This document shows, one piece after another, positions 661 through 60,721 of a stretch of 64,000 nt of DNA. The notes beneath the pieces were generated by a model. That model saw nothing but the letters and a program-made list of their open reading frames with translations. It made no database searches and had not been told where the DNA came from. A program made the translations under genes and the position numbers. Source of the DNA: Streptomyces sp. NBC_00878 (GTDB lineage: Bacteria > Actinomycetota > Actinomycetes > Streptomycetales > Streptomycetaceae); contig NZ_JAPEOK010000001.1 in the NCBI RefSeq assembly GCF_026341515.1, forward strand, positions 9,920,001 to 9,984,000. The letters are read 5' to 3'. Within the stretch, counting starts at the first letter, position 1; every line of letters starts with the position of its first letter.

Positions 661-3218
661 ACGCCTCCGTGCGCATCAGCGTGTCCTCCCTGCGTGCCCA
701 CAAGCGCCGCTTCGCCGGTACGTTCCTGGCGGTGCTCCTCGGCGTCGCCTTCCTGGCCGGCACGCTCGTCATGGGCGACACCCTGCGCGCCGGCTTCGAC
801 ACGATGTTCGGCAACGCCACGAGCGGCACCGACGCCGTCGTCCGCAGCGCGGGCACCATCACCACGCCGGGCGAGAGCCAGGGCGTACGGCAGCCCGTCG
901 ACACCGACCTGGTGACGGCCGTCGAGAAGGCCCCGGGTGTCGCGGCGGCCGTGCCCGACATCCAGGGCGCCGGCCAGCTCGTCGGCGCGAACGGCAAGCC
1001 CATCGGCGGCCAGGGTCCGCCCACCCTCGCGGGCAACTGGATCGACGACCCGAAGCTGAACTCGTACCAACTGGCCGAGGGACGCGCCCCGTCGAAGTCC
1101 GGCGAGGTGGTCGTCAACCGCGGTGCCGCCGAGAAGGGCGACCTGAAGATCGGCGACACGACGACACTGCGGACCCCCGACCCGGTCAAGGTCACGATCG
1201 TCGGCCTCGCGACCTTCGGCGGCGAGGACGGCATGGCCCAGGTGACCTACACCGGCATGACGCGGTCCGATGCCGAGAAGTACCTGACCGCGCAGCCCGG
1301 CGAGGCCGCGAGCATCCTGGTGCGGGCCGGACCCGGCACCGGTCAGCAGGAACTCGTGGATGCCCTGACTCCCGTACTCCCCAAGGGAGTTGAGGCGATC
1401 ACCGGTCAGGAGCTGGCCGCGGAGAACACCGACATGATCTCCGGCCAGTTCCTGACACTCTTCACCACCTTCCTGCTCGTGTTCTCCGGCGTGGCGCTGC
1501 TGGTCGCGACCTTCTCCATCCACAACACCTTCGCGATCGTGGTCGCCCAACGCACCCGCGAGAACGCCCTGTTGCGCGCTCTCGGTGCCTCACGACGGCA
1601 GGTCACCGCGTCGACCCTGGTCGAGGCGAGCGTCGTCGCCGTGGTCGCGTCCGCCGCCGGTCTCGCGGGCGGCATCGGCATCGCGGCCGGACTCCAGGCG
1701 CTGTTCCCGGCCATCGGATTCCCGTTCCCCGAGGGCGACTTGGTGATCAGCGGGCTGTCCATGGCCCTGCCGCTCGCGGTCGGCATCGTGGTCTGTCTCG
1801 GCTCCGCGCTGCTGCCCGCCGTACGCGCCGGGCGCACCGCACCACTGGCAGCCCTGCGCGAGACGGCCGTCGACCAGTCCGGGGCGTCCCGTACCCGTGC
1901 CGTCGTGGGCACCGGTCTCGCGGCACTGGCGGTCGCCGTCACACTGACCGGCGTCATCGTCAGCCCGTCCCTGTGGCTCGCCGGAAGCGGCGCGATCCTG
2001 GCGCTCGCCGCCTTCGTGGTCCTCGGCCCGGTCGCGTCGACCACCGCCGTACGCGTCCTCGGCAGCCCGCTCGACAAGCTGCGCGGAGTCACCGGCGCAC
2101 TGGCCCGGCGCAACGCCCTGCGCAGCCCCAAGCGCACGGCCGCCACCGCCGGCGCGCTGATGATCGGCGTCGCCGTCGTGTCACTGTTCACGGTCTTCGG
2201 CGCCTCGCTGAAGGCGACCATGGACCAGACCGTGTCACGGTCCTTCGCGGGCGATGTCGCCGTGAGCACCCCCTCGTTCGGCGCGGGCGGCAGCGGACTG
2301 AGCCCGCGGCTCGCCCCCGCGATCGCCGAGCGGCCCGAGGTCGACACGGCGGTCGGACTCGGCCGCGGCGTCGCTGAAGTCGACGGCGAGGGACGGGCGT
2401 TGACCGTCACCGACCCGGTCGCACTGGAGCGCGCCTTCGACCTCGGCGACGTACAGGGCTCCATGCGGAACCTCGGCGACGACGGCATCGCCATCACCGA
2501 GAGCGAGGCCGACAAGCAGGGCCTCAGGACCGGTGACACCGCCCAACTTGCCTTCACCGACGGCAAGAAGGAGACCTTCACGGTCCGCGCGGTCTACGGC
2601 CGGTCGGAGCTGGCAGGCGAGTACGTCATCACCCGCGAGGCCTGGGCCCCGCACCGCACCCAGGACTCCGACACACTCGTGGCCGTCACCTTCAAGGACG
2701 GCGTGAGCGCGGCCGACGGCAAGGCGGCGGTCGAGAAGGTCACGTCGGCGTACGGCAATCCGGAGGTGCAGACCCGCGACGAGTACGCGCAGTCCTCGGC
2801 CGGTGGCATCGACATGATGCTCACCCTGGTCTACGCGCTCCTCGCGCTCGCGGTGCTCATCGCACTGCTCGGCATCGCCAACACGCTGACCCTCGCGGTC
2901 CACGAACGCACCCGCGAACTCGGCCTGTTGAGGGCCGTCGGGCAGACCAGGTCGCAACTGCGCGCGATGGTCCGCTGGGAGTCGGTACTGGTCGCCGCGT
3001 TCGGCACGGTCGGCGGACTCGCACTCGGCGGCTTCCTCGGCTGGGTGCTCGTGAAGGCCTCCGACGGAGCGTCCGACAGCACCTTCGCCTTCGCGGTGCC
3101 GCCGGTCCAGCTCGCGGTGGTGGCCCTGGTGGGTGTCGCCGCCGGAGCCCTCGCGGGCCTGCGCCCGGCCCGGCGGGCCGCACGCCTCGACGTACTGCGC
3201 GCCATCGCCACGGAGTAG
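657..3218 (+). CDS. FtsX/MacB-like ABC transporter permease
   Basis: Membrane subunit of the exporter whose ATPase lies immediately upstream. The chosen ATG at 657 overlaps the upstream TGA; a longer in-frame opening from 279 is only a shadow inside the ATPase gene. The product is 853 aa. There is an N-terminal membrane segment at about residues 17-37, an extracellular MacB-like domain, a first FtsX domain (around the text QRTRENALLRALGASRRQV), further membrane segments, a second periplasmic-type domain and a second FtsX domain with the matching motif HERTRELGLLRAVGQTRSQ. This duplicated layout is standard for large actinomycete FtsX permeases. No substrate is inferred. Confidence 0.93.
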   Translation: MNASVRISVSSLRAHKRRFAGTFLAVLLGVAFLAGTLVMGDTLRAGFDTMFGNATSGTDAVVRSAGTITTPGESQGVRQPVDTDLVTAVEKAPGVAAAVPDIQGAGQLVGANGKPIGGQGPPTLAGNWIDDPKLNSYQLAEGRAPSKSGEVVVNRGAAEKGDLKIGDTTTLRTPDPVKVTIVGLATFGGEDGMAQVTYTGMTRSDAEKYLTAQPGEAASILVRAGPGTGQQELVDALTPVLPKGVEAITGQELAAENTDMISGQFLTLFTTFLLVFSGVALLVATFSIHNTFAIVVAQRTRENALLRALGASRRQVTASTLVEASVVAVVASAAGLAGGIGIAAGLQALFPAIGFPFPEGDLVISGLSMALPLAVGIVVCLGSALLPAVRAGRTAPLAALRETAVDQSGASRTRAVVGTGLAALAVAVTLTGVIVSPSLWLAGSGAILALAAFVVLGPVASTTAVRVLGSPLDKLRGVTGALARRNALRSPKRTAATAGALMIGVAVVSLFTVFGASLKATMDQTVSRSFAGDVAVSTPSFGAGGSGLSPRLAPAIAERPEVDTAVGLGRGVAEVDGEGRALTVTDPVALERAFDLGDVQGSMRNLGDDGIAITESEADKQGLRTGDTAQLAFTDGKKETFTVRAVYGRSELAGEYVITREAWAPHRTQDSDTLVAVTFKDGVSAADGKAAVEKVTSAYGNPEVQTRDEYAQSSAGGIDMMLTLVYALLALAVLIALLGIANTLTLAVHERTRELGLLRAVGQTRSQLRAMVRWESVLVAAFGTVGGLALGGFLGWVLVKASDGASDSTFAFAVPPVQLAVVALVGVAAGALAGLRPARRAARLDVLRAIATE

Positions 3219-3286
3219 CCGGAGCGACTGGACGAACGCGCCCTCGCCACGGACGAACTGGACGAACGCCACCTCGCCACCGACTG
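3187..3286 (+). repeat. 30 bp tandem repeat at the 3' end of the FtsX gene
   Basis: Two clear copies (cores starting CTGGACGAACGC at 3228 and 3258, period 30) follow the TAG stop, and a degenerate third copy lies in the last codons of the gene. The frame after the stop would read LDERALATD then LDERHLATD, resembling the true end RLDVLRAIATE. This looks like duplication of the gene's 3' end. It belongs to a recurring pattern in this window. Confidence 0.7.
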
Positions 3287-3322
3287 AGGGAGGAGAAGGA
3301 GGAGGTCTTGGTCACCGCCCGG

Positions 3323-4060: not shown

Positions 4061-4087
4061 GCGTGGGCTCTCGACGCGTGGGCTCTC
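4061..4087 (-). repeat. 15 bp tandem repeat spanning a stop codon
   Basis: Two identical copies of GCGTGGGCTCTC (plus strand 4061-4072 and 4076-4087, period 15). The second copy overlaps the TGA stop codon of the minus-strand gene at 4086-4409. This is one of the stop-associated tandem repeats of this window. Confidence 0.7.
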
Positions 4088-4409
4088 AGCGCCCGCGCCC
4101 CGCCGCCTTGCGCACGGCCTCGATGAACCTGCTGGCCGCCGGTGGGCCCGGTTCCCCCGGAGCCGGGTCGTGGTCGCCCAGGGTGAGCAGATAGCGCGTG
4201 CCGTTGACGTCCGCCAACGCCCGGTCCTCATGGGCGAACCAGGGCTTCGACGCCCGGACCGCCTGCACCGGCGCGCTGTCGATCTCGCTGCCGTAACTGG
4301 TCAGCAACTCCAGCCTGCCGTCGCTGATCCGGACCTGTCCGGCCCGCGTGAGCGAACGCAGCCTCTTTCCGATCCGCACGCCCGTGGCTGTGAACTCCGG
4401 CTCCGCCAT
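4086..4409 (-). CDS. conserved hypothetical protein, 107 aa
   Basis: I do not recognise a named domain. ATG at 4409 is chosen because a purine-rich AAGGGGGCGGGG segment precedes it; the open frame extends further upstream without a convincing start. The 107 aa product is soluble and mixed in charge, with a basic N-terminal segment (RIGKRLRSL) and conserved-looking aromatic pairs ([20 protein letters not shown]), ending in a basic tail. It is divergent from the cysteine desulfhydrase gene, with a 343-base shared upstream region. Confidence 0.6.
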
Positions 4410-6627: not shown

Positions 6628-6720
6628 TACCGCCCACGGATGCCGCCCAGGGGTGCCGCCTAGGGATGCCGCCCAGGGGTGCCGCCTAGGGATACCGCCC
6701 ACCGACGCCGCCCACGGATA
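6628..6720. repeat. 26 bp minisatellite downstream of the DeoR gene
   Basis: About 3.5 copies of a 26 bp unit, itself two diverged 13 bp halves (GGATGCCGCCCAG and GGGTGCCGCCTAG). Copies lie at 6638-6663, 6664-6689 and 6690-6715, with a partial one before. It sits between the SRPBCC start and the stop of the DeoR-family gene. Next to it, GTCGTCA is repeated at 6741 and 6754, the second copy overlapping the DeoR stop codon. Confidence 0.75.
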
Positions 6721-10312: not shown

Positions 10313-10322
10313 GGTGGCCGAC

Positions 10323-10375
10323 GCGACAGGGCGTCAGGCGTCGGGGCGTCAGGGCCTCGGCGCCGCACGGCCTCA
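10323..10375 (-). repeat. short repeats of GCCCTGA type at the 3' end of the AAA+ gene
   Basis: Read on the minus strand, the stop codon lies in GCCCTGAGG and related words (GCCCTGACG, GCCTGACG, GCCCTG) follow within 50 bases. The copies are imperfect, so this is a weaker member of the stop-associated repeat set. Confidence 0.45.
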
Positions 10376-13732: not shown

Positions 13733-13791
13733 GTTCCCGAGCGAGGGGCCCAGTTCCCGTGCGAAGGCCTGGTTCCCGTACGAGGGGCCTA
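13733..13791 (-). repeat. 19-20 bp tandem repeat, three copies, ending on a stop codon
   Basis: Plus-strand copies start GTTCCCG at 13733, 13753 and 13772, each followed by an (A/T)GCGA(G/A)GGGCC-like part. The last copy overlaps the TAG stop of the MOSC gene. It is one of the clearest stop-associated tandem repeats here. Confidence 0.8.
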
Positions 13792-15410: not shown

Positions 15411-16715
15411 ATGTCAATGCCCAAAGGATCGAACGTTCCGGTGCCGACGACCGGACTCCGCGTCGAACTCGGTTGGCGGGCCGGCCCGGGCGTACCCGAC
15501 GCGGATGCCTCGGCCCTGCTGCTGGCCTCGGGGAAGGTCCGTTCCGACGCCGACTTCGTCTTCTACAACCAGCCGGCCCACTCCTCCGGCGCGGTGCGCC
15601 ACGAGGGCAAGAAGGACGTCGGCGGCCAGGTGAACGACACGCTGCTCGTCGACCTCGCGCGCGTGGAGCCCGCGATCGACAGGGTGGTGCTCGCCGCGTC
15701 CTCCGACGGCGGGACGTTCGGGCAGGTGCCCGGGCTCTACATCCGGGTTGTCGACGCACAGCAGGGCACGGAGGTCGCGCGCTTCGACAGCGAGGGCGCG
15801 AGTGTGGAGACGGCCTTCGTGCTCGGGGAGTTCTACCGCCGCCAGGGCGCCTGGAAGTTCCGCGCCGTGGGCCAGGGCTACAGCAGCGGACTCGAAGGAC
15901 TCGCCACGGACTTCGGGATCACGGTGGACGAACCGCAGCGGGCGGCGCCGGCTCCCGTGCCGCCGCGGCCCGCCCCCGCGGCCCCACGACCCGCTCCTGT
16001 GGCCCCGCCGGTCACGGCAGCGCCGGTGACACCGCCGGCCGCACCACCGGCCCCGCCCGCGCCGCCCGCGACTCCGGTACGCCTGACCAAGGTCACGCTC
16101 ACCAAGGAAGCCCCGTCCGTCTCGCTGACCAAGCAGGGCGGCACGTCCGGCGTGATGCGCGTGAACCTCAACTGGCAGGTGCGCAAGCAGTTCTCCGGGT
16201 GGCAGGCCAAGCTGGGCCGGGCCGTCGCCATGCACGCGGACCTCGACCTCGACCTGTGCGCCCTGTACGAGCTCTCGGACGGCAGCAAGGGAGTCGTCCA
16301 GGCACTGGGCAACGCCTTCGGAGCGCTGCATCAGCCGCCGTTCATCCATCTCGACGGCGACGACCGCACCGGCGCCTCGACGAGTGGCGAGAACCTCAGC
16401 ATCAACCTCGACCACACACAGTACTTCCGGCGCCTCCTCATCTTCGTGACCATCTACGAAGGGGCACGTTCCTTCGCCGACCTGGACGCGACGGTGACCC
16501 TGCAGCCGCTGCACGGCGCGCCCGTCGACTTCTCGCTCGGCGAGTGCACCGTCCCCTCCACGGTGTGCGCACTCGCCCTCATCACCAACACCGGCAGCGA
16601 CCTCGTCGTCCAGCGCGAGGCCCGCTTCCTCGTCCCGGACCGCGGCGTGAGCCCGCAGCGCACCGTCGACTACGCGTACGGGTGGGGCATGAACTGGACG
16701 CCCGGCAGGAAGTGA
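15411..16715 (+). CDS. TerD-family protein with two TerD-like domains joined by a Pro/Ala linker
   Basis: A 434 aa cytoplasmic protein. Domain 1 (about residues 1-180) has TerD signatures [34 protein letters not shown] and [13 protein letters not shown] linker of about 45 residues rich in P and A follows. Domain 2 (about 225-430) has [39 protein letters not shown] and HLDGDDRTG. TerD proteins bind Ca2+ through Asp-rich loops and act in tellurite, phage or stress responses. ATG at 15411 has GGGAG 6 bases upstream. No other ter genes are adjacent. Confidence 0.9.
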
Positions 16716-16749
16716 CCGGCAGGACAGAAGTGAACGGCGGGAGGTGACC
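16704..16749 (+). repeat. 14-18 bp tandem repeat, three copies, spanning the TerD stop codon
   Basis: Units GGCAGGAAGTGACC (16704), GGCAGGACAGAAGTGAAC (16718) and GGCGGGAGGTGACC (16736). The TGA stop of the TerD gene is inside unit 1, and the TGA triplet recurs in units 2 and 3. Confidence 0.75.
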
Positions 16750-18908: not shown

Positions 18909-19466
18909 ATGAGGGACCACCCCCACGGCGAACAGGGCGATGCCGACGCCCCGCACCCCGAGGTATGGCACGGCCGCGCTTCCAACCGCGTGCAGTGGCT
19001 GCTCGCGTGCGGCGGTGCCGCCTTCGTGGCGCTGGGTATCGAGCTGGCCGTCGACTCGGCGTGGACGTCCGGCACCGCTCCCCTCGTGATGTCCGTGGTC
19101 GGCTGCATCGCCGCGGGACTCCTGGTGCTGTTCGGCACGCTCGCTTTCGTGCACGTCGCCGTGAAGGTCGACAAGGACTACCTGGAGGTGCGCTGCGGCC
19201 ATATGGGCCTCCCGCGCCGCCGCATCCCGCTGTCGCACATCACCGGTGCCGACTTCGTACCCCGGGTGACGCCGCGCCAGTGGGGCGGCTGGGGCTACCG
19301 CTGGCGGCCCGAGCAGGGGACCGCCGTGGTCGTCCGGCGCGGCGAGGGCCTGGTGCTCCGCCTAGGGGACGGCCATACGTTCACGATCACGGTGGACAAC
19401 GCGGAAGCGGCCGTACGGGACATCCGTCGCCGTCTGAGGTCGGCCGCCGCGGGCACGACCCGCTGA
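18909..19466 (+). CDS. DUF3093/PH-like membrane protein
   Basis: A 185 aa protein. An acidic N-terminus (HGEQGDADAPHPEVWHGR) precedes two membrane helices (about residues 25-45 and 54-78), then a cytosolic beta-rich part with VKVDKDYLEVRCG, RRRIPLSHITGAD, WGGWGYRW and GTAVVVRRGEGLVLRL. This is the layout of bacterial PH/DUF3093-type proteins in actinobacteria, whose role is unknown. It follows the racemase gene by about 100 bases but has its own predicted leaderless start. Confidence 0.75.
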   Translation: MRDHPHGEQGDADAPHPEVWHGRASNRVQWLLACGGAAFVALGIELAVDSAWTSGTAPLVMSVVGCIAAGLLVLFGTLAFVHVAVKVDKDYLEVRCGHMGLPRRRIPLSHITGADFVPRVTPRQWGGWGYRWRPEQGTAVVVRRGEGLVLRLGDGHTFTITVDNAEAAVRDIRRRLRSAAAGTTR

Positions 19467-19530
19467 CCAGAGAAAAGGTCACTACGCGCTGACCCGGAAG
19501 GTCATTACCCGCTGACCGGGGAAATGGGTT
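19461..19530 (+). repeat. 23-26 bp tandem repeat, three copies, starting on a stop codon
   Basis: CGCTGACC recurs at 19461, 19487 and 19510; the first contains the TGA stop of the preceding gene. Units 1 and 2 also share AAGGTCA(C/T)TAC. It is a stop-associated tandem repeat in a convergent 3' region. Confidence 0.75.
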
Positions 19531-23935: not shown

Positions 23936-25861
23936 ATGTCTCGCGATCAATTGCAGTCCGCCGGGCGCTCCGACGTGAGCGCCGAGGCGCCGTTCCTGGA
24001 GCTGCTGGCCCGGGGCGCGTCCGCCGACGCGTACGAGCAGCCGGTGCTGCTCGCCCGCGCGGACGGGCTGCCGCCCGACCGGATCGCCGCTCTGGAGCGC
24101 GCCAAGCTCCTCGCGCTGGGCGTGCGCTCGGAGATGGAGGGGCGCCGCAGACGCGAGGCCGAGCTGTCCGCGCTCTTCGAGACCGCCCACGACCTGGCGG
24201 GGCTGCGCGACCTCGACGCCGTGCTCCAGGCGATCGTGCAGCGCGCCCGCTCACTGCTGGGCACCGACATCGCCTACCTCAGCCTGCACGACCCGGCCGT
24301 GGGCGACACATACATGCGGGTCACCGAGGGATCGGTCGCGGCACGCTTCCAGCAGCTGCGGCTCGGCATGGGCGAGGGCCTCGGCGGACTCGTGGCCCAG
24401 ACGGCCCGCCCCTATGTCACCGACGACTACTTCCGGGACGGCCGCTTCCAGCACACCGCGGCCATCGACGAGGGTGTGCGGGACGAGGGCCTGGTGGCCA
24501 TCCTCGGCGTGCCCCTCATGCTCGGGCCGCATGCCATCGGCGTACTGTTCGCCGCCGACCGGCGGGCGCGGGTCTTCGAGCGGGAACAGATCGCGCTGCT
24601 CGGCTCGTTCGCCGCTCTCGCGGCCGCCGCCCTCGACACCGCGAACCTGCTCACCGAGACCCGCGAGGCGCTGGCGGACCTGGAGCGGGCCAACGAGATC
24701 ATCCGCGACCGCAGCGGGGCGATCGAGCGGGCCTCCGACGTCCATGACCGGCTGGCCGAGCTCGTGCTGCGGGGCGGCGGGGTCCACGACGTGTCCGCCG
24801 CGGTCTCCGAGATCCTCGACGGCAGCGTGCGGTTCGCGGGCGCGGGCACCGCACCCGATGACGCCCTGGAGATGTCACGCGCCGAAGGACACGCCGTCCG
24901 GCACGGGGACGACTGGGTCGCGGCCGTCGCCGCCGGCGGTGAGCTGCTCGGCGCGCTGGTGCTGCGCGGTCATCCCGGGCTCGACCCCGTCGACCAGCGC
25001 ACTCTGGAGCGGGCAGCCATGGTCACCTCGCTCCTGCTGCTCGCCCGGCGCTCGGCCGCCGAGGCCGAACAGCGCGTCCGCGGTGAGCTGCTGGACGATC
25101 TGCTCGACGCGCGCGACCGCGATCCCCGGCTGCTGCGCGATCGCGCCGCCCTGCTGGACGCCGACCTCGACGCCACCCATGTGGTGCTGGCCTCCCGCCT
25201 CGACGCCACGGCCGCCGACGCGGCCCACGAGGCCGCCGCCCGCCGCAGACTGTGGTCCGCCGCCTCCCACCTGGCCGCGACCCGGCACGGGCTGGCCGCC
25301 GCGCGCGACGGCGGCACCGTCCTGCTGCTGCCGCTGAGCCCCGGCGACACGGCGACGGACCTGGCCCGCCGCACGGCCAAGGACCTCGGTACCGCCGTGC
25401 ACGAGGCGGTCACCGTCGGCGCCTCCGCGCCCGTCCAGGACCTCACCGCCCGCCCGGACATCGTGGCCGAGGCCTACGCCGAAGGGCAACGATGCCTCGA
25501 CGCGCTGCTGCTGCTCGGCCGCACCGGGGACGGCGGCGCCGCGGAGGACTTCGGATTCCTCGGGCTGCTGCTCGCCGGGAGCAGGGACATCCCCGGCTTC
25601 GTCGAGCGCACGATCGGCCGGGTCGTCACGTACGACGAGAAGCGCGGCACCGATCTCCTGCGCACCCTCGACGCGTACTTCGCTTGCGGCATGAGCCCCG
25701 CACGCACCAAGGACGAGCTGCACGTCCACGTCAACACGGTCGCGCAGCGCCTGGAGCGGGTGGGCCGGCTGCTCGGCCCCGACTGGCAGAGCCCGGCCCG
25801 CACCCTGGAGATCCAACTCGCCCTGAGGCTGCACCGGTTGACGTCCACAGGACGGCACTGA
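23936..25861 (+). CDS. GAF domain PucR-type transcriptional regulator
   Basis: A 641 aa cytoplasmic regulator. After an N-terminal region, a GAF domain (about residues 75-235) includes FETAHDLAGLRDLD, YLSLHDPA and LGVPLMLG. A coiled segment follows, then the CdaR/PucR middle part, and a C-terminal PucR helix-turn-helix with LLRTLDAYFACGMSPARTKD and HVHVNTVAQRLERV. ATG at 23936 is chosen; GTG at 23921 in the same frame is an alternative. Its position 58 bases after bdhA suggests it controls that gene or the convergent transporter. Confidence 0.85.
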   Translation: MSRDQLQSAGRSDVSAEAPFLELLARGASADAYEQPVLLARADGLPPDRIAALERAKLLALGVRSEMEGRRRREAELSALFETAHDLAGLRDLDAVLQAIVQRARSLLGTDIAYLSLHDPAVGDTYMRVTEGSVAARFQQLRLGMGEGLGGLVAQTARPYVTDDYFRDGRFQHTAAIDEGVRDEGLVAILGVPLMLGPHAIGVLFAADRRARVFEREQIALLGSFAALAAAALDTANLLTETREALADLERANEIIRDRSGAIERASDVHDRLAELVLRGGGVHDVSAAVSEILDGSVRFAGAGTAPDDALEMSRAEGHAVRHGDDWVAAVAAGGELLGALVLRGHPGLDPVDQRTLERAAMVTSLLLLARRSAAEAEQRVRGELLDDLLDARDRDPRLLRDRAALLDADLDATHVVLASRLDATAADAAHEAAARRRLWSAASHLAATRHGLAAARDGGTVLLLPLSPGDTATDLARRTAKDLGTAVHEAVTVGASAPVQDLTARPDIVAEAYAEGQRCLDALLLLGRTGDGGAAEDFGFLGLLLAGSRDIPGFVERTIGRVVTYDEKRGTDLLRTLDAYFACGMSPARTKDELHVHVNTVAQRLERVGRLLGPDWQSPARTLEIQLALRLHRLTSTGRH

Positions 25862-25892
25862 CCCCCGTACGCGCTGATGACCCCCGTACGCG
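25859..25892 (+). repeat. 15 bp direct repeat, two identical copies, starting on a stop codon
   Basis: TGACCCCCGTACGCG occurs at 25859-25873 and 25878-25892 (period 19). The first three bases of copy 1 are the stop codon of the PucR-type gene, so the stop codon itself is duplicated. Confidence 0.85.
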
Positions 25893-36197: not shown

Positions 36198-36243
36198 CCG
36201 CATGACTGGGTGACTGCGTAGCTGTGACCGCATGGCTGTGACC
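36191..36243 (+). repeat. 14 bp direct repeat spanning a stop codon
   Basis: GCTGTGACCGCATG occurs at 36191-36204 and 36221-36234, and GCTGTGACC again at 36235. The stop codon of the MalT-type gene is inside copy 1. Confidence 0.8.
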
Positions 36244-36415
36244 ACTGGCTGTGTCCGGGCAGGAGTCCTTGTGGCCTGTCCGTCCGGCGGCTCGCCCGTG
36301 CCGGGTGAGGCGCCGGGTGAGTTCTTCCGGTGCGATGGGGGCGGCGGCACGGCATCTGCCGGCCGCCGCCCGGTGGACTCCGCCGGGTCCCGGCCGACTC
36401 GGTGAGGTGGACACC

Positions 36416-38088
36416 GTGGGGCACTGGCGAGCGCTGATGGTCCTGGGTACCGCCCAGTTCCTGATGGTCCTGGACACCGCCGTCATGAACGTGTCCATCA
36501 ACCAGCTGGTGGAGGACTTCGACACCGAGGTCACCGCGATCCAGGCCGTCATCACGTTGTACGCGCTGGTCATGGCCGCGTTCATGATCGTCGGCGGTCG
36601 GCTGGGGGACATCTTCGGACGTCGGCGTCTGTTCCTGTTCGGGCTCGCCGTGTACGCCACCGGGTCGGCGCTGACCGCCGTGGCTCCCACGCTGTGGGTC
36701 CTCGCGCTGGGCTGGTCCGTCATCGAGGGACCAGGGGGCTTCTGATGGATCTCCGCGGCGTCGCGACGCCCGGCACGTCCTCTCGCCGCACCGGGCACAG
36801 ACCCAAGTACGTCCAGTACGCGGGTCTGTGCCCGGCACACCGAGAGAACGCACCGAACGCCGCTCCTTCCCCACGGAGATCCATCAGAAGCCCCCTAGGC
36901 GCCGCGCTGGTGCTGCCTGCCATGGCCGCCCTCGTGGCCGAGTCCTACCGCGGGCGGGACAGAGCCGTCGCCTACGGCGTCATCGGCGGCCTCGCCGGAG
37001 CCGGCATCGCGGTCTGCCCGCTGCTGGGCGGCTGGGTGACGACGTACCTCACCTGGCGGCTGGTGTTCGCCGGTGAGGTCGTGGTCGTCCTGATCGTCCT
37101 CTGCTTCCACCGGGTGATCACGGAATCGCCTCGCACCGGACCGCGCCCCCACCTGGACGGGGTCGGCGCCGCACTCTCGGCGACCGGGCTGGGCCTCGGC
37201 GTCCTCGGGGTACTGCAGAGCGGCACCTGGGGATGGGTGCGGCCCCGCAACCCGCCCTTCACCGTCTTCGGCTTCGCACCGACCCTGTTCGTCGTCGCCG
37301 CCGGGGTGGCCGTACTCGCCGCCTTCCAGCACTGGGAGAAACGGCGCTTCGACGCCTTCGAGACAGGTCTGAGACTGCTCCCCGTGTCCGTCACCATGCT
37401 CGCGGCCTCCATGGTCGCCGCACGGCTCGGACGGGCGGCCGGACCGCGCCGGGTGGTCCGGCTGGTCCTGGCGACCCTGGTCGGCGCCGTCGTGTGGCTG
37501 CTGGCCACCATCGACCCGGTCATCGACGACGCGCAGTTCGCCGGAGCCATGGCTCTGCTCGGTGTGGGCATGGGCCTGCTCGCTTCCCAGCTGGGCAACG
37601 TCGTCCAGTCCACCGTGGGCGAGGAGGAACGCAGCCAGGCGGGTGGACTGCAGTTCACGGCCCAGAACCTGGGCTCCGCGCTGGGTACCGCGCTCATCGG
37701 ATCCAAACTCATCGGCGCCCTGGCCCATGCCTTCACCGCGCAGGTGGAGGAGAACCCGCAGCTGTCGGAGGAGGCCCGTCAGCAGACCGGTGTCGCCCTC
37801 GAAGCCGGGATCAGCTTCGTGCCCACCGACGAGGTGCGCTCGGCCGCCGAACGCGCCGGGCTGCCCCCGTCCGAGGTCGACGCCGTGGTTGACTCGTACG
37901 CGTCGGCGCAGCTCAACGGTCTGAAGGCGGCGATCCTCGCCACCGGCGGCATCACGCTCGCCAGTTTCCTGGTCACGCCGCACCTGCCGACCCGGGGGTC
38001 CGCCCGTCCGAAGCAGGCCGGCTCCGGCGTGCCCGCCGACACGACCGGCTCGGCTGATACGGCCGGTTCGGCCGGTTCGGCCGGCTGA
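36416..38088 (+). pseudogene. DHA2-type MFS transporter, split by a MITE-like insertion and lacking an internal segment
   Basis: The first part (GTG 36416, GAGG 8 bases upstream) encodes helices 1-4 of a drug-exporter-type MFS protein, VLGTAQFLMVLDTAVMNVS through GGRLGDIFGRRRLFL to SVIEGP, and stops at 36745 inside the inserted element. The rest (GAALVLPAMAALVAESYRGR onward) continues in another frame to 38088. Deleting the 160-base element plus one 4-base target copy restores the frame exactly. A second lesion is an in-frame gap of roughly 50 residues between EKRR and FDAFETGLRLLPVS, where relatives have two helices. The C-terminus reads GLQFTAQNLGSALGTAL. Function as an exporter is unlikely. 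Confidence 0.85.
36735..36894. mobile_element. MITE-like element (160 bp) inside the MFS gene
   Basis: The ends are perfect inverted repeats: GGGGCTTCTGATGGATCTCCG at 36735 is mirrored to 36894 (23 bp if the flanking A/T pairs are counted). The interior has a second perfect 14 bp inverted repeat, CCGGGCACAGACCC against GGGTCTGTGCCCGG, around a 14-16 base loop. Flanks CCAG (36731-36734) and CTAG (36895-36898) look like a 4-base duplication of a CTAG target with one change. No transposase is encoded. CTAG targets and short inverted repeats suggest mobilisation by an IS5-group transposase; this is inferred. Confidence 0.8.
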
Positions 38089-38090
38089 CC
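38061..38090 (+). repeat. 9 bp tandem repeat spanning the MFS stop codon
   Basis: GGCCGGTTC at 38061 and 38070 and GGCCGGCTG at 38079. The TGA stop at 38086-38088 begins in the third copy. The repeat encodes the Ala-Gly-Ser tail of the protein. Confidence 0.7.
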
Positions 38091-41719: not shown

Positions 41720-41759
41720 GGCACACGTCGAAGGCACGAGTCGAAGGCACCGTACGAGA
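41720..41759 (+). repeat. 13 bp tandem repeat just after the SHOCT stop codon
   Basis: GGCACACGTCGAA (41720), GGCACGAGTCGAA (41733) and a diverged GGCACCGTACGAGA (41746). It begins two bases after the TGA. Confidence 0.75.
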
Positions 41760-43555: not shown

Positions 43556-43630
43556 ACGCATGACGGCCGAGTCGGCCCCCGCGCAGTCACCGCCGCCGAG
43601 CGGCGGTACCGAGCGCCGGTCCAGCGCCGC

Positions 43631-50086: not shown

Positions 50087-51421
50087 ATGGCAACCCCCAG
50101 TCTTCAGGACGGCATCGACAACGCGGGGTCGCCCATCGCGCTCCTGTGGAAGCCGGGTGCCGCACCGTGGACCCCCGAGGTCGTCGAGCGCGAGTACGCC
50201 GGCTGGCGCCGGGAGCAGGCCGCGTGGCACGAGGGCGTGGCTCTCCTCAACCTCTCGCACCACATGTACGACTTATGGATCGAGGGTCCGGACGCCACGC
50301 GCCTGCTCGCGGACCACGGTGCCAACAACTTCGAGAAGTTCGCCGTCGGTCAGGCCAAGCAGTACGTCCCGGTGACGAAGGACGGCAACATCGTCACGGA
50401 TGGCATCCTCGCCCGCGAGGCCGAGAACAGGTATCTGCTCAGCGGTATCCCCGCCGCGCAGCACTGGGTCCAGTACCACGCGGAGAAGGGCGGCTACGAC
50501 GTCTCCTTCGTCACCGACCCGTCCTCGGCCTACCGCCGGGGCGGCGGCGACCCCGTCCTGTTCCGCTACCAGGTCCAGGGTCCGTTCGCCCAGGACCTGG
50601 TGGAGCGGGCCTTCGGCGGGCCGCTGCCGGAGACGAAGTTCTTCCACTCCACCCCGGTCGCCCTGGACGGCCGGCGCTTCCGCGCCCTGCGGCACGGCAT
50701 GGCGGGTCAGGCCGGCTTCGAGTTCATCGGCCCCTGGGAGCACGCCGCCCCCGTACACGAGGCGTTCATCGAGGCGGGCGAACCGCTCGGCCTGGTCCAG
50801 GTCGGCGCCCTGGCCTACACGACGCCGAACGTGGAGAGCGGCTGGATCCCCTCACCGGTACCCGCCATCTACTCCGACCCCGACCTGCTGGAGTACCGCA
50901 AGCACCTTCCCCTGTACGGCATCGAGGGCCAACGCCCGTTGAACGGCAGCTACTTCTCGACGGACATCGAGGACTACTACTGCTCCCCGTACGAGCTCGG
51001 CTACGGCAGGATGATCTCCTTCAACCACGACTTCCTGGGCCGGGACGCTCTCGCGAAGGCGAAGGACGCCGTCCGGCGCACGAAGGTCACGCTGCTCTTC
51101 GACGCCGGTGACGTGCTCGACGTGATCGGCCGGGGCCGGGATCCGGGCTTCCGGCTGACCTACGCCCGCCACCGAGTGGAGAGCGCGACCGGCCTGGTCG
51201 GCGTGACCATGCAGACCGCGAGCATCGACCCGGTCGGCACCCTGCTGTCGCTGGCCCTGGTCGACAAGGAGTACGCGGAGCCCGGCACCCAGGTCCGGGT
51301 GGTGTGGGGCGAGCACCCCGGCTCCGGTACCGACCCCGAGGCGGACCTCGGATTCCCGCGCGTCCGCGCCACCGTCCACCCCGTGCCGTTCAACCTGCAC
51401 GCGCGCACCCTGTATCGCCGC

Positions 51422-51430
<9 letters not shown>
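50087..51430 (+). CDS. LigM/GcvT-like tetrahydrofolate-dependent O-demethylase
   Basis: A 447 aa protein of the aminomethyltransferase fold. It tracks sphingomonad LigM (vanillate/3-O-methylgallate demethylase) as I remember it: LSHHMYDLWIEGPDA, AKQYVPVTKDGNIVTDGIL, FRYQVQGP, RALRHGMAGQAGFEFIGP, ESGWIPSPVPAIY, STDIEDYYCSPYELGYG and FNHDFLGRDAL. It would move a methyl group from a methoxylated aromatic acid to tetrahydrofolate. ATG 50087 has AAGGAGCC upstream. Codon 63 (50273-50275) is TTA, the only TTA codon I found in the window, so translation may depend on bldA. Confidence 0.82.
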
Positions 51431-55557
<4,127 letters not shown>

Positions 55558-55700: not shown

Positions 55701-57197
55701 ATGACGGACTCTCCCGACAGAGGAGCAGGCAGTCGGCAGCTCCAGGTGGAGGTGCACGGGCTCGATGTGATCGGTGATGCCGAGCGCAAGGGGACACCCC
55801 GCACGCTCTTCTGGCCCTGGTTCGGCGCCAACGTGTCGATCCTCGGCCTGAGTTACGGGTCCTTCGCGCTCGGGTTCGGGATCTCGTTCTGGCAGGCGCT
55901 GGCCGCCGGGGTGATCGGGATCGTCTTCTCCTTCCTGCTCTGCGGGTTCGTCGCGGTGGCGGGAAAGCGCGGCTCCGCGCCGACGATGGTGCTCAGCCGG
56001 GCGGCCTACGGCGTCCGGGGCAACCGGCTGCCGTCGGTCGTCTCCTGGATGCTCACCGTCGGCTGGGAGACCGTGCTCACGGCCCTGGCGACCATGGCCA
56101 CCGCGACCGTTCTCGACCGGCTCGGCTGGGGCGGCGGCACCGCGACCAAGGCCGTCGCCCTGATCGTCGTCGGGGCGCTCGTCGTGGTCGGCGGCGTGAT
56201 GGGCTTCGACCTCATCATGCGGCTGCAGACGGTGATCACCGTCGTCACCGGTGTCCTGACCGTCGTCTACATCGGGCTCGTCGCCGACCACATCCACTGG
56301 TCGGCCGTCAGCGCCCTACCGGCCGGCTCCGCCCAGGAGTTCATCGGCGCCCTCGTCTTCATGATGACCGGCTTCGGACTCGGCTGGGTCAACGCCGCCG
56401 CGGACTACTCGCGTTACCTGCCACGCGACACCTCCGGCCGGGGAGTGATCGGCTGGACCACCTTCGGTGCCTCGGCGGCGCCCCTGCTCCTGCTGGTCTT
56501 CGGCCTGCTGTTGGCCGGATCGTCCACCACGCTCAACACGGCCATCGCGGCCGACCCGATCGGTGCGCTGACCACGATCCTGCCCACCTGGTTCCTGATC
56601 CCCTTCGCCGCCGTGGCCGTACTCGGCCTGGTCGGCGGCGCGGTCCTCGACATCTACTCCTCCGGCCTCGCCCTGCTCGCGGCGGGCCTGCGGGTGCCGC
56701 GCTATCTGGCCGCCCTGATGGACGGCGTCCTGATGATCGCGGGCTCGATCTACATCGTCTTCCTCACGGACGACTTCCTGGGCCAGTTCATCGGCTTCCT
56801 CACCACACTCGGCGTGCCCGTCGCCGCCTGGTGCGGCGTGCTGCTCGCCGACCTGGCGCTGCGCCACCGCGACTACGACGAGGCGGACCTGTTCCGCGTC
56901 CGCGGCCGCTACGGCGACGTCGAATCGCTCCCGCTGCTGCTCACCCTCGCCGCCACTGCGATCGGCTGGGGCCTCGTCACCAACACGGCCGCCGACTGGC
57001 TGGAGTGGCAGGGCTATCTGCTCGGCCCGCTGGGCCTCGGCGGCAAGGACGGCTCCTGGGCCTACGCCAACCTCGGCGTCCTCGCCGCGCTCGCCCTCGG
57101 CTTCCTCGGCACCCTCGCACTCGGCCGCGGCCGGGTCCGTACGCAGGAGGCGCGGCCCCCGAGCCGACCGCTGGACGAGGAGGTGTTGGGCGCATGA
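55701..57197 (+). CDS. NCS1-family nucleobase/cytosine permease
   Basis: A 498 aa, 12-helix transporter. Typical text includes GTPRTLFWPWFGANVSILGLSYGSF, SRAAYGVRGNRLPSVVSWMLTVGWE, GLGWVNAAADYSRYLPR and GAVLDIYSSGLALLAAGLRVPR. CodB-type members carry cytosine or other purines/pyrimidines, and relatives carry hydantoins or allantoin. ATG 55701 is used. The stop overlaps the ATG of a cysteine hydrolase, so uptake and hydrolysis of one nitrogenous compound are probably coupled. Confidence 0.9.
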   Translation: MTDSPDRGAGSRQLQVEVHGLDVIGDAERKGTPRTLFWPWFGANVSILGLSYGSFALGFGISFWQALAAGVIGIVFSFLLCGFVAVAGKRGSAPTMVLSRAAYGVRGNRLPSVVSWMLTVGWETVLTALATMATATVLDRLGWGGGTATKAVALIVVGALVVVGGVMGFDLIMRLQTVITVVTGVLTVVYIGLVADHIHWSAVSALPAGSAQEFIGALVFMMTGFGLGWVNAAADYSRYLPRDTSGRGVIGWTTFGASAAPLLLLVFGLLLAGSSTTLNTAIAADPIGALTTILPTWFLIPFAAVAVLGLVGGAVLDIYSSGLALLAAGLRVPRYLAALMDGVLMIAGSIYIVFLTDDFLGQFIGFLTTLGVPVAAWCGVLLADLALRHRDYDEADLFRVRGRYGDVESLPLLLTLAATAIGWGLVTNTAADWLEWQGYLLGPLGLGGKDGSWAYANLGVLAALALGFLGTLALGRGRVRTQEARPPSRPLDEEVLGA

Positions 57198-57766
57198 GCC
57201 GGCCAGGACCACACGGCCTGCTGGCCGTCATCGACATGCAGCGCGTCTTCGCCGAGCCGGACAGCCCCTGGGCCGCGCCCCGCTTCACCGAGGCCGCGGA
57301 CGGGGTACGCCGCCTGCTGCCGGCCTTCGCGGAACACGTCACCTTCACCCGGTTCCTGGCACCCGAGAAGCCCGTCGGCGCCTGGCGGGCCTACTACGAG
57401 CAGTGGCCCTTCGCGCTCCGGCCGCCGCACGACCGGCTCTGGGAACTGGTGGACGAACTCGCCCCCCACGCCCGGCACTTGGTGGACGCCCCGACCTTCG
57501 GCAAGTGGACTCCGGAGCTGGCCGAGCGCGTGGGTCCCGAGGGCCGTCTCGTGCTCGCCGGAGTCAGTACGGACTGCTGTGTGCTGTCCACCGCACTGGC
57601 CGCCGCCGACGCCGGAGCCGAGGTACGGGTGGTGGCCGACGCCTGCGCGGGCGCGGACGAGGCCTCGCACGCCAAGGCCCTGCAGGTCATGGACCTGTAC
57701 CGGCCCCTGATCCGGGTCGTCACCGTGGCCGAGGTGCTGGCCGGGGTGTCGGCCGGGAACGCGTGA
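57194..57766 (+). CDS. isochorismatase-family cysteine hydrolase
   Basis: A 190 aa amidase-type hydrolase. The catalytic triad is visible: D14 in AVIDMQRVF, K104 in PTFGKWTPEL and C129 in VSTDCCVLSTA. The family includes N-carbamoylsarcosine amidase, nicotinamidase and biuret/ureidoacrylate hydrolases. Overlap with the NCS1 permease gene suggests it acts on the transported compound or its breakdown product; the substrate is not identified. Confidence 0.88.
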   Translation: MSRPGPHGLLAVIDMQRVFAEPDSPWAAPRFTEAADGVRRLLPAFAEHVTFTRFLAPEKPVGAWRAYYEQWPFALRPPHDRLWELVDELAPHARHLVDAPTFGKWTPELAERVGPEGRLVLAGVSTDCCVLSTALAAADAGAEVRVVADACAGADEASHAKALQVMDLYRPLIRVVTVAEVLAGVSAGNA

Positions 57767-57782
57767 ACAGCCTTCGTGGCCA

Positions 57783-57884
57783 GAGGCGACTCGCCCCCGA
57801 GTAGTCGTCATAGGCGTCCCGCCCCCGAGTTGTCGTCAGAGGCGCCTCGGCCCCCGAGCAGTCGTCAGAGGCGCCCCACCCCCG
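57783..57884 (-). repeat. 28-29 bp tandem repeat, about 3.6 copies, over the fucosidase stop codon
   Basis: Plus-strand units start at 57783, 57811, 57839 and 57868 (the last partial). Each contains GCCCCCGAG and ends GTCGTCA. On the minus strand each carries a CTCTGACGAC or CTATGACGAC word, so the fucosidase TGA is duplicated twice downstream. Confidence 0.85.
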
Positions 57885-59130
57885 TGTAGAGGTCCAGCTC
57901 CCCTTCGAGTTCGACGGCGATCACCGTCGCCCGGTCGTCCAGGTCGGCCGCCGTGGGCGCGTCGATCCACGTCACGCCGGGAACGGCGTCGAGGCCGCCG
58001 GTGACGTGGTGGCCCAGTTCGGCGCCCGAGCCGAGGACCGAGGCCCGCCGGACCGGGTTGCGCAGGCCGCGGATCGAGACGGAGTCGCGCGGGGTGTCGA
58101 AGCACACCAGGTAGAGGGTGCGCCGGTCGGCGGAGAGCGTGCTGGGGCCGTAGTGGTGCCCCGGGGGCAGCCCGGCGACCGTGCCGTACACGGCGTCGGA
58201 GTGCCGCGCGATCCACGCGCCGAGGCCCTCCAGGCGTTCGACCTGCTCCTCTGGGATCGTGCCGTCCTCACGAGGCCCGGCGGCCAGCAGCAGATTGCCG
58301 CCCATGCCGATCGTCTCGGTGAAGTACCGCACCAGCTGGCGCACCGACTTGAAGCCGCGGTCCCGCGGTCGGAAGCTCCACGAGTCGTTGATCGTGAGGC
58401 ACAGCTCCCACGGGCCGTCCGGGGCCCGCAGCGGGGCGCCCTGCTCCGGCGTGGCGTAGTCGCCGTAACTGAGCATGCGGCCGTTGAGGATGGTGTCCGG
58501 CTTGCCGGAGAGGATCAGCTCGGCGAGCTCGCCCATCCGCCACTGGTCCTCGGTGCGCTCCCACTCCCCGTCGAACCAGAGGATGTCGGGCCGGAAACGC
58601 TCGACGAGCTCGCGGACCTGGCCGTCGCGGTACGTGAGATAACGCGCCCAGGTCTGCGGGTCCTCCTCGCCGGGCTCGGCGTGCGAGTAGCCGTTGGGCG
58701 GCACGATGTACGGCCCGGGGTGCCGCTCACTCGCGTAGTCCGGGTGGTTCCAGTCGGAGTGCGAGTAGTAGAGGCCGACCTTGAGATCCCGTGCGCGCAG
58801 CGCGTCGACGAAGCCGGTGACGAGGTCACGGCCCGCCGGGGTGTCCCGTACCACGTCGAGGTTCCGGTGGTCGGTGTCCCAGAGGGCGACGCCGTCGTGG
58901 TGCCGGGCGGTGAGCACCGCGTACCGTGCGCCCACGCGGGCGAACAACTCGGCCCAGGCATCCGGGTCGTAGTGCGACGCGGTGAAGCCGTCGAGCTGTT
59001 TCGTGTACTGCTCGTGCGTCATCTCGCCCGTGTAGAAGGACCAGGACTCGGCGGCGCCGCCCACGGCGTAGATGCCGTAGTGGATGAAGATGCCCAGCTT
59101 GGCATCGGGAAACCAGGGTTGCATCGGCAT
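57865..59130 (-). CDS. alpha-L-fucosidase (GH29)
   Basis: A 421 aa retaining glycosidase. GH29 signatures are KLGIFIHYGIYAVGG, SFYTGEMTHEQY, AKYAVLTARHHDG-like ARYAVLTARHHDGVALWDT, KVGLYYSHSDWNHPDY and the nucleophile D187 in PDILWFDGEWE; NLLLAAGPREDGTI is also typical. No signal peptide is present, so it should act in the cytoplasm on imported fucosides. ATG 59130 follows a TAGCGT element at 6 bases, consistent with a leaderless start. No sugar transporter or regulator is adjacent. Confidence 0.93.
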   Translation of the reverse strand: MPMQPWFPDAKLGIFIHYGIYAVGGAAESWSFYTGEMTHEQYTKQLDGFTASHYDPDAWAELFARVGARYAVLTARHHDGVALWDTDHRNLDVVRDTPAGRDLVTGFVDALRARDLKVGLYYSHSDWNHPDYASERHPGPYIVPPNGYSHAEPGEEDPQTWARYLTYRDGQVRELVERFRPDILWFDGEWERTEDQWRMGELAELILSGKPDTILNGRMLSYGDYATPEQGAPLRAPDGPWELCLTINDSWSFRPRDRGFKSVRQLVRYFTETIGMGGNLLLAAGPREDGTIPEEQVERLEGLGAWIARHSDAVYGTVAGLPPGHHYGPSTLSADRRTLYLVCFDTPRDSVSIRGLRNPVRRASVLGSGAELGHHVTGGLDAVPGVTWIDAPTAADLDDRATVIAVELEGELDLYTGVGRL

Positions 59131-59457: not shown

Positions 59458-60699
59458 GTGATCGCCGCTCCCGAACCCGGACTGACCGAACGCGAACTGA
59501 TCGGCCGAGCCGTCGCCCTGCGGCCCGCGCTGCTCGAACGCCAACCGGAGACCGAGCGGTTGACGCGCTACCCGAAGGACACGCACGACGACTTTCTGCG
59601 CGCCGGTTTCTACCGGATCCTGCAGCCGCGCCGCTACGGCGGATACGAGTTCGGCCTGCCGACCTTCTACCGCGTGGTCACCGAGATCGCCCGCGGCTGT
59701 CCCTCCACGGGCTGGGCGCTCTCCCTGACCGCCGCCCATGTGCTCCAGGTCGCGGCACAGTTCGAGGAGCGGGCGCAGGACGAGATCTTCGGCGACGACG
59801 GCGAGTTCCGCGCCTCGTCCACCCTCAGCCCGGTCGGCGTGGCCAAGCCGGACGGCGACGGACATGTGGTCCTCGACGGAACCTGGCCGTACGCCTCCGG
59901 CTCGCCGTACTCCACGCACTGCGTCGGCCAGACCCTGCGCGCCCCTCAGAAGCCGGGCGACCCGCCCGGACCGCGGGTGTTGTTCGTCGCGCCGCGCTCC
60001 GTGTGGACCCTGCTCGACGACTGGCACGGCGTCCTCGGGCTGCGCGGCAGCGGCTCCAACAGCATCCGCATGGATCAGGCCCGCATCCCCGTGTACCTCA
60101 CCCGGGAGGTGAGCCTGCTCGACCTGCCGGTGGAGGGCGGCACACCCGGGTCGAAGCTGCACGGCAACGCGCTGTACGCGGGCCGCGCCCCGAGCTTCTA
60201 CCACGGCGAACTCGCCGCCATCATGATCGGCACCGCCTACGCGGCCACCGACGAGTACGCCCGGATCGTCGCCCAGCGGCCGCTGACCCTGGAACCCGAC
60301 CGCACGCGGGCCGAACTGCACGACTACCAGCGCCACTTGGGCGAGGCACTCGGCGCGATCCACACCGCCGAGGCGGCCCTCCAGCGCAACGCCGAGGACT
60401 ACATGGAGACCTGCCGTCGCAATGTCTCGGGCGAGGCGTCCTTCACCATGGCCGACGACAACCGCCTCGCGCTCGTCTTCCTCACCGCCGGCCGCATGGC
60501 CTGGGACGTCACGCAGAGCATCCTGTTCCGCACGGCGGGTACCCGCCACGCCCGCGACGGCGAGCGGATGCAGCGGTACTTCCGGGACGCCGCCACGTAC
60601 TGGACGCACATCGGGCCGAGCATGGCCGAGCCGTTCGCGCGGCGCGTCGGCTGCGACCGGCTCGGGCTGCCCTCGCATGACATTCCGCTCATTCCGTGA
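59458..60699 (+). CDS. acyl-CoA-dehydrogenase-fold flavin-dependent monooxygenase (HsaA/HpaB-like)
   Basis: A 413 aa group D flavin monooxygenase. It shows the family pattern ERLTRYPKDTHDDFLRAGFYRILQPRRYGGYEF, EIARGCPSTGWALSL, the mid-domain DGTWPYASGSPYSTHCV, GVLGLRGSGSNSI and a C-terminal helical domain ending in LGLPSHDIPLIP. HsaA-type enzymes hydroxylate phenols with reduced flavin from a partner reductase; no reductase gene is adjacent. GTG 59458 has a strong AGGAGG site. Substrate unknown. Confidence 0.85.
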   Translation: MIAAPEPGLTERELIGRAVALRPALLERQPETERLTRYPKDTHDDFLRAGFYRILQPRRYGGYEFGLPTFYRVVTEIARGCPSTGWALSLTAAHVLQVAAQFEERAQDEIFGDDGEFRASSTLSPVGVAKPDGDGHVVLDGTWPYASGSPYSTHCVGQTLRAPQKPGDPPGPRVLFVAPRSVWTLLDDWHGVLGLRGSGSNSIRMDQARIPVYLTREVSLLDLPVEGGTPGSKLHGNALYAGRAPSFYHGELAAIMIGTAYAATDEYARIVAQRPLTLEPDRTRAELHDYQRHLGEALGAIHTAEAALQRNAEDYMETCRRNVSGEASFTMADDNRLALVFLTAGRMAWDVTQSILFRTAGTRHARDGERMQRYFRDAATYWTHIGPSMAEPFARRVGCDRLGLPSHDIPLIP

Positions 60700-60721
60700 G
60701 CGTTCCGTGACATCCGTGTGA
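60681..60721 (+). repeat. 9-11 bp tandem repeat, about four copies, over a stop codon
   Basis: ATTCCGCTC, ATTCCGTGAGC, GTTCCGTGAC and ATCCGTGTGA follow each other from 60682. The second contains the TGA stop of the monooxygenase gene, and TGA recurs in the next two. Confidence 0.75.

Follow-up and report, generated by a model that had tools for sequence, protein, structure and literature searches.

Short tandem arrays cluster just past stop codons in Streptomyces, probably as tolerated duplications

In Streptomyces, the first ~100 nt past the stop codon is the preferred site of short tandem arrays. Among 1559 genes from five Streptomyces data sets, searched with Tandem Repeats Finder (TRF) at a score of at least 50 and compared with one shuffle per sequence, roughly one in seven (221, versus 14 in shuffles) carries an array in the 100 nt downstream of the stop, and 107 carry one in the 100 nt upstream of the start. 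The stop codon itself lies within an array in 56 of these genes (2 in shuffles) and the start codon in 10; coding and noncoding DNA together hold 518 arrays (83 in shuffles). The main counts were made with TRF because an ungapped detector overlooks gapped arrays, e.g., 51422-51481 of the sequence described below. The arrays are probably near-neutral tandem duplications with fast turnover, tolerated past the stop because a duplication that spans it keeps the protein intact; they look like harmless copying scars, not spare stop signals. No earlier description of post-stop clustering of tandem arrays turned up when the open literature was searched by topic.

The clustering is evident in the window, a stretch of 64,000 nt from Streptomyces sp. 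NBC_00878, for which a sequence-only reading had proposed that many genes end in tandem copies including or touching the stop codon. The copies are there: all 14 listed spans contain or abut the stop of a gene predicted by its codon usage (the span at 41720 is 1 nt off), and 11 of the 14 were matched by no more than 5 of 100 local shuffles, each taking in the span and 60 nt on either side. Matches were more frequent for 6741-6760 (23/100), 51422-51481 (25/100 by ungapped score; the span scores 59 with gapped TRF) and 60681-60721 (6/100). Rfam gave no match in the window.

On the plus strand, a 30-nt unit in 1.9 copies (3227..3284) lies 8 nt past the TAG stop (3216-3218) of the gene at 657-3218; at its counterpart, the relative G128 (~91% identical) has a 21-nt array of 4.1 copies. 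TGA stops are spanned at 16704..16749 (14-18-nt unit, about three copies; stop 16713-16715), 19454..19524 (23-nt unit, 2.9 copies; stop 19464-19466), 36191..36257 (14- and 30-nt units, up to 4.7 copies; stop 36195-36197) and 51420..51473 (degenerate 20-nt unit, 2.7 copies; stop 51428-51430). By eye, G128 has fewer copies at 16704..16749 and no clear repeat at 36191..36257, and the array at 51420..51473 is absent from this stop in 23 orthologous loci; an ungapped scan of these misses the window's own array too. At 25859..25892, the first of two copies of a 19-nt unit begins at the TGA stop (25859-25861), and G128 is duplicated here too, with a slightly different period by eye. The second copy resembles, by eye, the 5ʹ arm of an adjoining downstream hairpin. 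Further arrays begin 1 nt past the stop at 41716-41718 (13-nt unit, 2.4 copies; 41720..41759) and 2 nt past the TGA stop at 53138-53140 (20-nt unit, 2.2 copies; 53143..53186), the latter missing from the original list, and a weak 9-11-nt repeat at 60681..60721 spans the stop at 60697-60699. The case listed at 38061-38090 consists mainly of a 9-nt repeat that keeps the reading frame within a coding end: a 9/18-nt in-frame repeat (38035..38090) occupies the end of the gene at 36922-38088 up to its TGA stop (38086-38088), with fewer copies in G128 by eye.

On the minus strand, a 15-nt unit in 1.8 copies (4061..4088) abuts the stop (4086-4088) of a weakly scored gene call at 4086-4409, and three copies of a 19-20-nt unit (13733..13791; 5/100 shuffles, ungapped) run from the TAG stop (13789-13791) of the gene at 13789-14613; by eye, G128 has a single copy at both counterparts. 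For the gene at 6758-7672 (stop 6758-6760), the listed copy at 6741-6760 is not above chance, and an array 38 nt past the stop, at 6630..6719 (13-nt unit in 6.9 copies or 26-nt unit in 2.8), had been missed. A weak repeat at 10323..10375 (15-nt unit in 1.7 copies or 8-nt unit in 4.1; 4/100 shuffles match) reaches the stop (10373-10375) of the gene at 10373-12808. Also missing from the list was a 13-nt unit in 2.8 copies (43596..43629), 1 nt downstream of the stop (43631-43633) of the gene at 43631-44050. Finally, a 28-nt unit in 3.9 copies (57781..57889) lies between convergent genes, spanning the minus-gene stop (57865-57867) and beginning 14 nt past the plus-gene stop (57764-57766), at whose counterpart G128 has a different, 23-nt array.

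Across the genus, repeat coverage is higher in 3ʹ than in 5ʹ flanks in every one of 14 stretches, which come from 13 Streptomyces genomes. By position relative to the stop, it is 3.6% at -10..+9, 8.5% at +30..+49 and 2.8% at +110..+129, with a maximum ~30-70 nt beyond the stop and not at the stop itself. The proposed placement at the stop and its context thus holds insofar as arrays do occur there, but their peak lies past it. The upstream array edge falls at -20..+30 of the stop in 123 of 207 arrays and beyond -20 in only 2, a scarcity that is partly by construction, as the edge list omits arrays wholly within a gene. Arrays are not equally dense elsewhere or in shuffled sequence. Coverage in five of six Streptomyces sets is 2.1-9.9% in convergent versus 0.4-2.5% in divergent spacers; the exception, G272, has few arrays overall (convergent 0/4552 bp, divergent 0.23%). 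Convergent spacers are the densest class in three of the six sets, tandem spacers exceeding them in the other three, and in convergent spacers of at least 400 nt coverage drops to 0.4% of 23.5 kb at more than 150 nt from a stop. Intergenic density was 0.85 and 0.67 arrays per kb versus 0.014 and 0 (one shuffle each, score 13), and head-to-tail near-identical copies exceed chance, as in minisatellite/VNTR loci.

Array density varies several-fold between genomes and increases with genome size (rho 0.72, p 0.006; 13 non-independent stretches at differing chromosome positions). Coding fractions in the gene calls were low for G013 (0.73) and G031 (0.71). The named set of loci used 20 of 24, i.e., 19 titled Streptomyces and one 'Actinobacteria bacterium', and left out two Actinospica, one Streptacidiphilus and one MAG. 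The comparison outside the genus is sparse: 50 kb of E. coli, too little sequence to judge, held no arrays, and 200 kb of G305, from the same phylum, held 0 in flanks and 5 in coding DNA (2 in flanks with poorer gene calls). G302, excluded for failed gene calls (coding 0.68), had 1.35% coverage after stops versus 0.06% before starts.

As the sequence-only reading had it, the units are unrelated between genes. Only 4 pairs among 126 units are similar (1 after shuffling), which therefore points to a process that recurs and not to a single repeat family; a dispersed family built on one mobile unit was rejected. Selection for duplicated stops as back-ups against readthrough, which had also been suggested, is hardly credible. 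Stop-spanning units do contain stop triplets (47 of 56 first copies), by construction. However, the stop in the second copy is intact in 27 of 48 stop-spanning arrays and in frame in 10 of those 27, without above-chance bias, and the period is a multiple of three in an unbiased 19 of 51. An in-frame stop occurs in the remainder of the array in 23 of 55 cases versus 23 and 22 in the other two frames, and a stop within 60 nt is present in frames 0, +1 and +2 for 0.40, 0.40 and 0.42 of genes (n = 62). Moreover, arrays missing the stop show no clear excess of stop triplets (14.7-16.6 versus 15.0 per kb). It is also very unlikely that the arrays influence mRNA stability or transcription termination by way of their structure or a bound protein. 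The position of the arrays coincides with the expected terminator zone, a few fold strongly (e.g., the array at 200181 of the 5.0-5.4 Mb stretch, z -4.8) and the array at 25859 adjoins a hairpin by eye. Against this stand the unrelated units, their turnover at ~9% divergence and, for a structured terminator in particular, the lack of any hairpin excess among 106 3ʹ-flank arrays compared with column-permuted arrays (mean fold z +0.06).

The turnover is fast. Array copies were compared between species (~91% identity; one genome per species), and 3 of the 54 arrays score as shared with G128, 9 correspond there to one copy or part of one and 42 have no trace there, in a comparison that skipped sequences >2000 nt and in which 'no trace' is weak for short units. 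One array, -52920 of G000, scored 'no trace' though its G128 counterpart scored as shared, and 4/54 shared would be fairer. A 464-kb stretch contains 405 neighbouring gene pairs; for 171 of them the spacer is 10 nt or longer and both sides map to G128. Identity is 84% in convergent spacers, 87% on the tandem stop side, 90% in divergent spacers and 92% on the tandem start side; at third codon positions it is 86.6%. Non-duplication indels of 5-60 nt number 28 per kb in convergent spacers and 11 on the tandem stop side, versus 5 and 5 in divergent spacers and on the tandem start side. 3ʹ flanks thus look to be under little constraint. Array presence in orthologous flanks (10 both, 18 and 15 one only, 86 neither) is concordant beyond chance (odds ratio 3.2, p 0.027), and where both flanks have an array, the units mostly differ.

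Gene ends might instead be mutational hotspots at which termination, stalled RNA polymerase, R-loops or transcription-replication conflict provoke slippage, an explanation that is plausible though unlikely; equally doubtful is its corollary, that 8-40-nt duplications are made within ~100 nt of stops and renew 3ʹ flanks within a few per cent divergence. It would fit the drop in density beyond 150 nt in long convergent spacers, the mild concordance between orthologous flanks and the dense coverage of convergent spacers in three of six sets, but other indels are elevated at the same places and tandem spacers are covered more in the remaining three. Moreover, flanks with an array in the partner species are not richer in hairpins (32 versus 184, p 0.85), the two directions of the comparison disagreeing (18 flanks more, 14 less); an earlier version (31 versus 152, p 0.19) leaned towards more hairpins. 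Wild-type mutation-accumulation lines of S. ambofaciens likewise argue against a hotspot, with 147 substitutions and 9 indels of 1-4 bp and, in the available part of that report, no mention of larger duplications (PMC11109965). Part of the pattern could also stem from annotation, if some arrays that seem to lie past a stop in fact belong to extended C-termini or to coding DNA missed by the gene calls; this is distinctly unlikely, and can be compatible with the other readings. Away from the stop, multiple-of-three periods are in excess, at 64 of 121 arrays 3-120 nt past it (20 with an inner sub-period dropped) and 36 of 62 beyond 30 nt (p 7e-5), and multiple-of-three arrays at 30-120 nt have more flanking coding signal (0.44 versus 0.24). 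However, stop-spanning arrays lack the excess and show little coding signal when their period is not a multiple of three (0.06), and the surplus of 3ʹ over 5ʹ coverage extends to every stretch.

Under tolerated near-neutral duplication, short tandem duplications (units mostly 8-40 nt) would arise through replication slippage or template switching, expand by more slippage, erode by substitution and be deleted. Minisatellite/VNTR arrays are likewise presumed to originate by slippage. In Streptomyces, arrays would persist best in the first ~100 nt past the stop, taken as the gene-adjacent DNA that best tolerates indels. Within the gene, the length of a duplication would have to be divisible by three; at the start, a duplication would perturb ribosome binding, leader or promoter. 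A duplication of any length spanning the stop would spare the protein, because the first copy retains the coding end and stop, and stop codons would therefore be copied as passengers. We infer slippage and neutrality alike from these patterns. The sequence-only reading had spoken of slippage tolerated only in 3ʹ ends; tolerated slippage fits the turnover, the 3ʹ-flank indel load and this geometry, but 'only' is too strong, as arrays also occur within coding sequences (multiple-of-three periods in 92 of 94) and, more sparsely, upstream of starts.

Several observations count against tolerance. Indels classed as tandem duplications between G000 and G128 show no 3ʹ excess: 10 on the tandem start side (1.6 per kb), 5 in convergent spacers (1.2), 6 in divergent spacers (0.6) and 3 on the tandem stop side (0.5). 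These small numbers are weak evidence, classed from pairwise alignments that dropped spacers >1500 nt or differing by >400 nt, and convergent flanks align poorly. Nor does tolerance plainly predict the drop in density beyond 150 nt from the stop, where long spacers may contain uncalled genes. The concordance between orthologous flanks, the multiple-of-three excess at 3-120 nt, for which possible uncalled coding DNA accounts only in part, and the several-fold differences in density, rising with genome size, point the same way.

Being simple to count, the arrays can document how duplications are gained and lost in a clade whose genomes are very large; MutS/MutL repair is described as mostly absent from the phylum in the available text of PMC5290159. 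Since most arrays are unshared at a divergence that leaves third codon positions 87% identical, 3ʹ flanks could serve as fast strain markers. They could also be a place to separate mutation from selection, and 'duplicated stop codons' in genomes like these do not have to be functional.

Related repeats are known. Judging from the accessible part of PMC2734929, intergenic minisatellites such as mycobacterial MIRU-VNTR likewise consist of head-to-tail units of tens of bases; unlike them, the Streptomyces arrays are many and unrelated (across five sets, 207 lie at a stop or shortly after one), often have two to four imperfect copies and concentrate within ~100 nt past stops. Short intergenic tandem repeats also differ among strains in the S. 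venezuelae chloramphenicol cluster, one of them between cmlI and cmlM, but these concern three loci and were interpreted as regulatory, with no link to stop codons mentioned in the portion available (PMC7357120). A survey of prokaryotic direct repeats found close repeats often over-represented intergenically, as here, its available text containing no analysis by position relative to stop codons (PMC4060949). The TAACTGA direct repeats of Beggiatoaceae may also overlap stops and contain stop triplets; as excerpted, they share one unit and mostly face start codons, whereas Streptomyces arrays have no common unit (PMC4679880). In archaeal Borg elements, the arrays are described, in the part at hand, as perfect and A-rich (PMC9879509), whereas those of Streptomyces are mostly imperfect, have the composition of their surroundings and concentrate past stops. 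Borg-type repeats were rejected as a class for the present arrays: most of those listed are imperfect, often with two to four copies, and the A content is 0.162 in units versus 0.154 in flanks. Array GC is 0.707, versus 0.701 in the surroundings.

At the stop codons of the window, the sequence-only reading had listed 14 spans of tandem copies, with repeat units that differ from gene to gene. The copies are present where they were listed, 11 of the 14 spans were matched by no more than 5 of 100 local shuffles, and the units are indeed without relation between loci. The window occupies bases 9920001–9984000 of contig 1 in an 11.1-Mb genome. Genes were called from codon usage (51 in the window, one running off its end), and arrays, meaning short head-to-tail repeats, were detected by Tandem Repeats Finder (TRF) and an ungapped self-match scan. 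In two stretches of this genome (G000), the density of intergenic arrays at score 13 is 0.85 and 0.67 per kb, compared with 0.014 and 0 in shuffled sequence. TRF was also applied to 1559 genes in five sets, comprising two stretches of G000, one each of its close relative G128 and of G013, another genome of the genus, and 20 named loci. There, an array contains the stop codon of 56 genes (2 in shuffles) and the start codon of 10. Arrays lie within 100 nt downstream of the stop in 221 genes, against 14 when shuffled, and within 100 nt upstream of the start in 107, a count that takes in the upstream genes' own flanks.

Array coverage is highest 30–70 nt past the stop (8.5% and 7.8% by TRF), and a strict scan concurs. 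Of 207 arrays, 123 have their upstream edge within −20 to +30 of the stop and 2 have it beyond −20, a small number that is due in part to the exclusion of arrays wholly within genes. When an array spans the stop, the gene's own stop is mostly in the first copy, which is largely a consequence of how gene ends are defined. Among spacers of 100–199 nt, arrays cover 10–23% of convergent and 1–3% of divergent ones.

The bias toward gene ends is widespread in the genus, to which the genomes counted here are assigned by their labels. Noncoding 3ʹ flanks are more covered than 5ʹ flanks in all 14 stretches from 13 genomes, for example 2.0% versus 1.1% where the genome is 5.3 Mb and 15.0% versus 5.3% where it is 12.0 Mb. 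Larger genomes have higher coverage (rho 0.72, p 0.006) across 13 stretches, a sample in which one genome contributes two stretches and has a close relative in G128, and in which chromosome positions are unequal. The extreme is a stretch of G031 (L173–L177), where an array follows the stop by no more than 100 nt in 24 of 67 genes and 3ʹ coverage of 18.7% (5ʹ, 4.9%) tops the other stretches; its coding fraction is low (0.71), and gene calls there are therefore doubtful. By the strict scan, G272, also of the genus, is almost devoid of arrays, and a 200-kb stretch of G305, an actinobacterial genome outside the genus, has none in its flanks. A literature search confined to open-licence papers found no earlier account of post-stop arrays, which may be in print elsewhere.

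Turnover of the arrays is evident in G128, which is collinear over much of the region at ~91% identity. Of 54 arrays over 171 syntenic spacers, 3 score as shared and 42 have no trace in the other species, where the remaining 9 are represented by a single or partial copy. In a side-by-side reading, G128 has fewer copies or none at 4061, 13733, 16704 and 36191, carries another array at 3187, 6741 and 57783, and shares the duplication at 25859. For gene 50087–51430, the sole gene of the window looked up by name, 24 loci were recovered, 19 of them titled Streptomyces, the basis on which the genus is taken to be that one; by eye, none of 23 orthologous loci has the window's array at the stop, one carries another repeat, of 12 nt, across it, and one has a 13-nt repeat 106 nt past it. 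Closest in kind are the tandem repeats of Borgs, likewise of independent origin and fast turnover (PMC9879509).

These arrays probably arise by slippage, as tandem duplications that are tolerated after the stop. Tolerance is supported because 3ʹ flanks diverge quickly and are rich in indels, because copies spanning the stop leave the protein intact whatever their length, and because arrays within genes repeat at a multiple of three (92 of 94). Between G000 and G128, evolution is fastest, among the classes measured, in convergent 3ʹ flanks (84% identity). The stop side of tandem spacers, at 87%, is on par with third codon positions (86.6%), and evolution is slower in 5ʹ flanks (90–92%). Other than those classed as duplications, indels of 5–60 nt have 2 to 6 times the density in 3ʹ flanks that they have in 5ʹ flanks. 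In S. ambofaciens, wild-type mutation-accumulation lines are reported to have gained 147 substitutions and 9 indels of 1–4 bp (PMC11109965), which suggests that duplications of array size are rare per generation. The earlier proposal of back-up stop codons fares poorly. A second stop would need to be in frame to matter, and it is in just 10 of 27 cases; in 62 genes, the in-frame value for a stop within 60 nt is 0.40, versus 0.40 and 0.42 in the other frames. Of 51 stop-spanning arrays, 19 have a period divisible by three, and arrays that miss the stop contain 14.7–16.6 stop triplets per kb versus 15.0 in array-free flanks. The 106 arrays examined for folding energy fold no more strongly than column-permuted versions, and flanks are not richer in hairpins when an array occurs in the partner species (p 0.85, the two directions disagreeing; p 0.19 in an earlier version).

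Alternatively, gene ends could be a mutational hotspot for tandem duplication, which we consider unlikely. Four points are less well explained by tolerance. Among indels in the G000–G128 alignments that were assigned to tandem duplication, 3ʹ flanks are not enriched (5 convergent and 3 on the stop side of tandem spacers, 10 on the start side and 6 divergent). In long convergent spacers, very little of the sequence is covered once the distance to stops exceeds 150 nt, and array presence is mildly concordant between orthologous flanks (odds ratio 3.2, p 0.027). Finally, arrays 3–120 nt past the stop have an excess of multiple-of-three periods (64 of 121, five sets) though the DNA is called noncoding, with period peaks of noncoding arrays at 15 and 18 nt. 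Uncalled coding DNA goes some way toward explaining this excess, which is tied in part to flanking coding signal.

Three further observations were made. At 25859–25930, the 19-nt duplication has a second copy that by eye resembles the 5ʹ arm of a hairpin, strong and directly downstream, which is also retained by eye in G128; the duplication would thus take in the stop together with a possible terminator arm. Mid-contig, at 5.0–5.4 Mb of G000 contig 1 (L022–L041), coding density is low (0.77) and a piece matches genome G068 at 11.4 of 12.1 Mb; contig 1 may therefore depart from natural chromosome order. Lastly, an element of ~80 bp at 55586–55668, between genes 53338–55557 and 55746–57197, has no Rfam match and is a dispersed intergenic repeat, with repeated matches of 79–94% identity, among the matches listed, in all six Streptomyces genomes searched.
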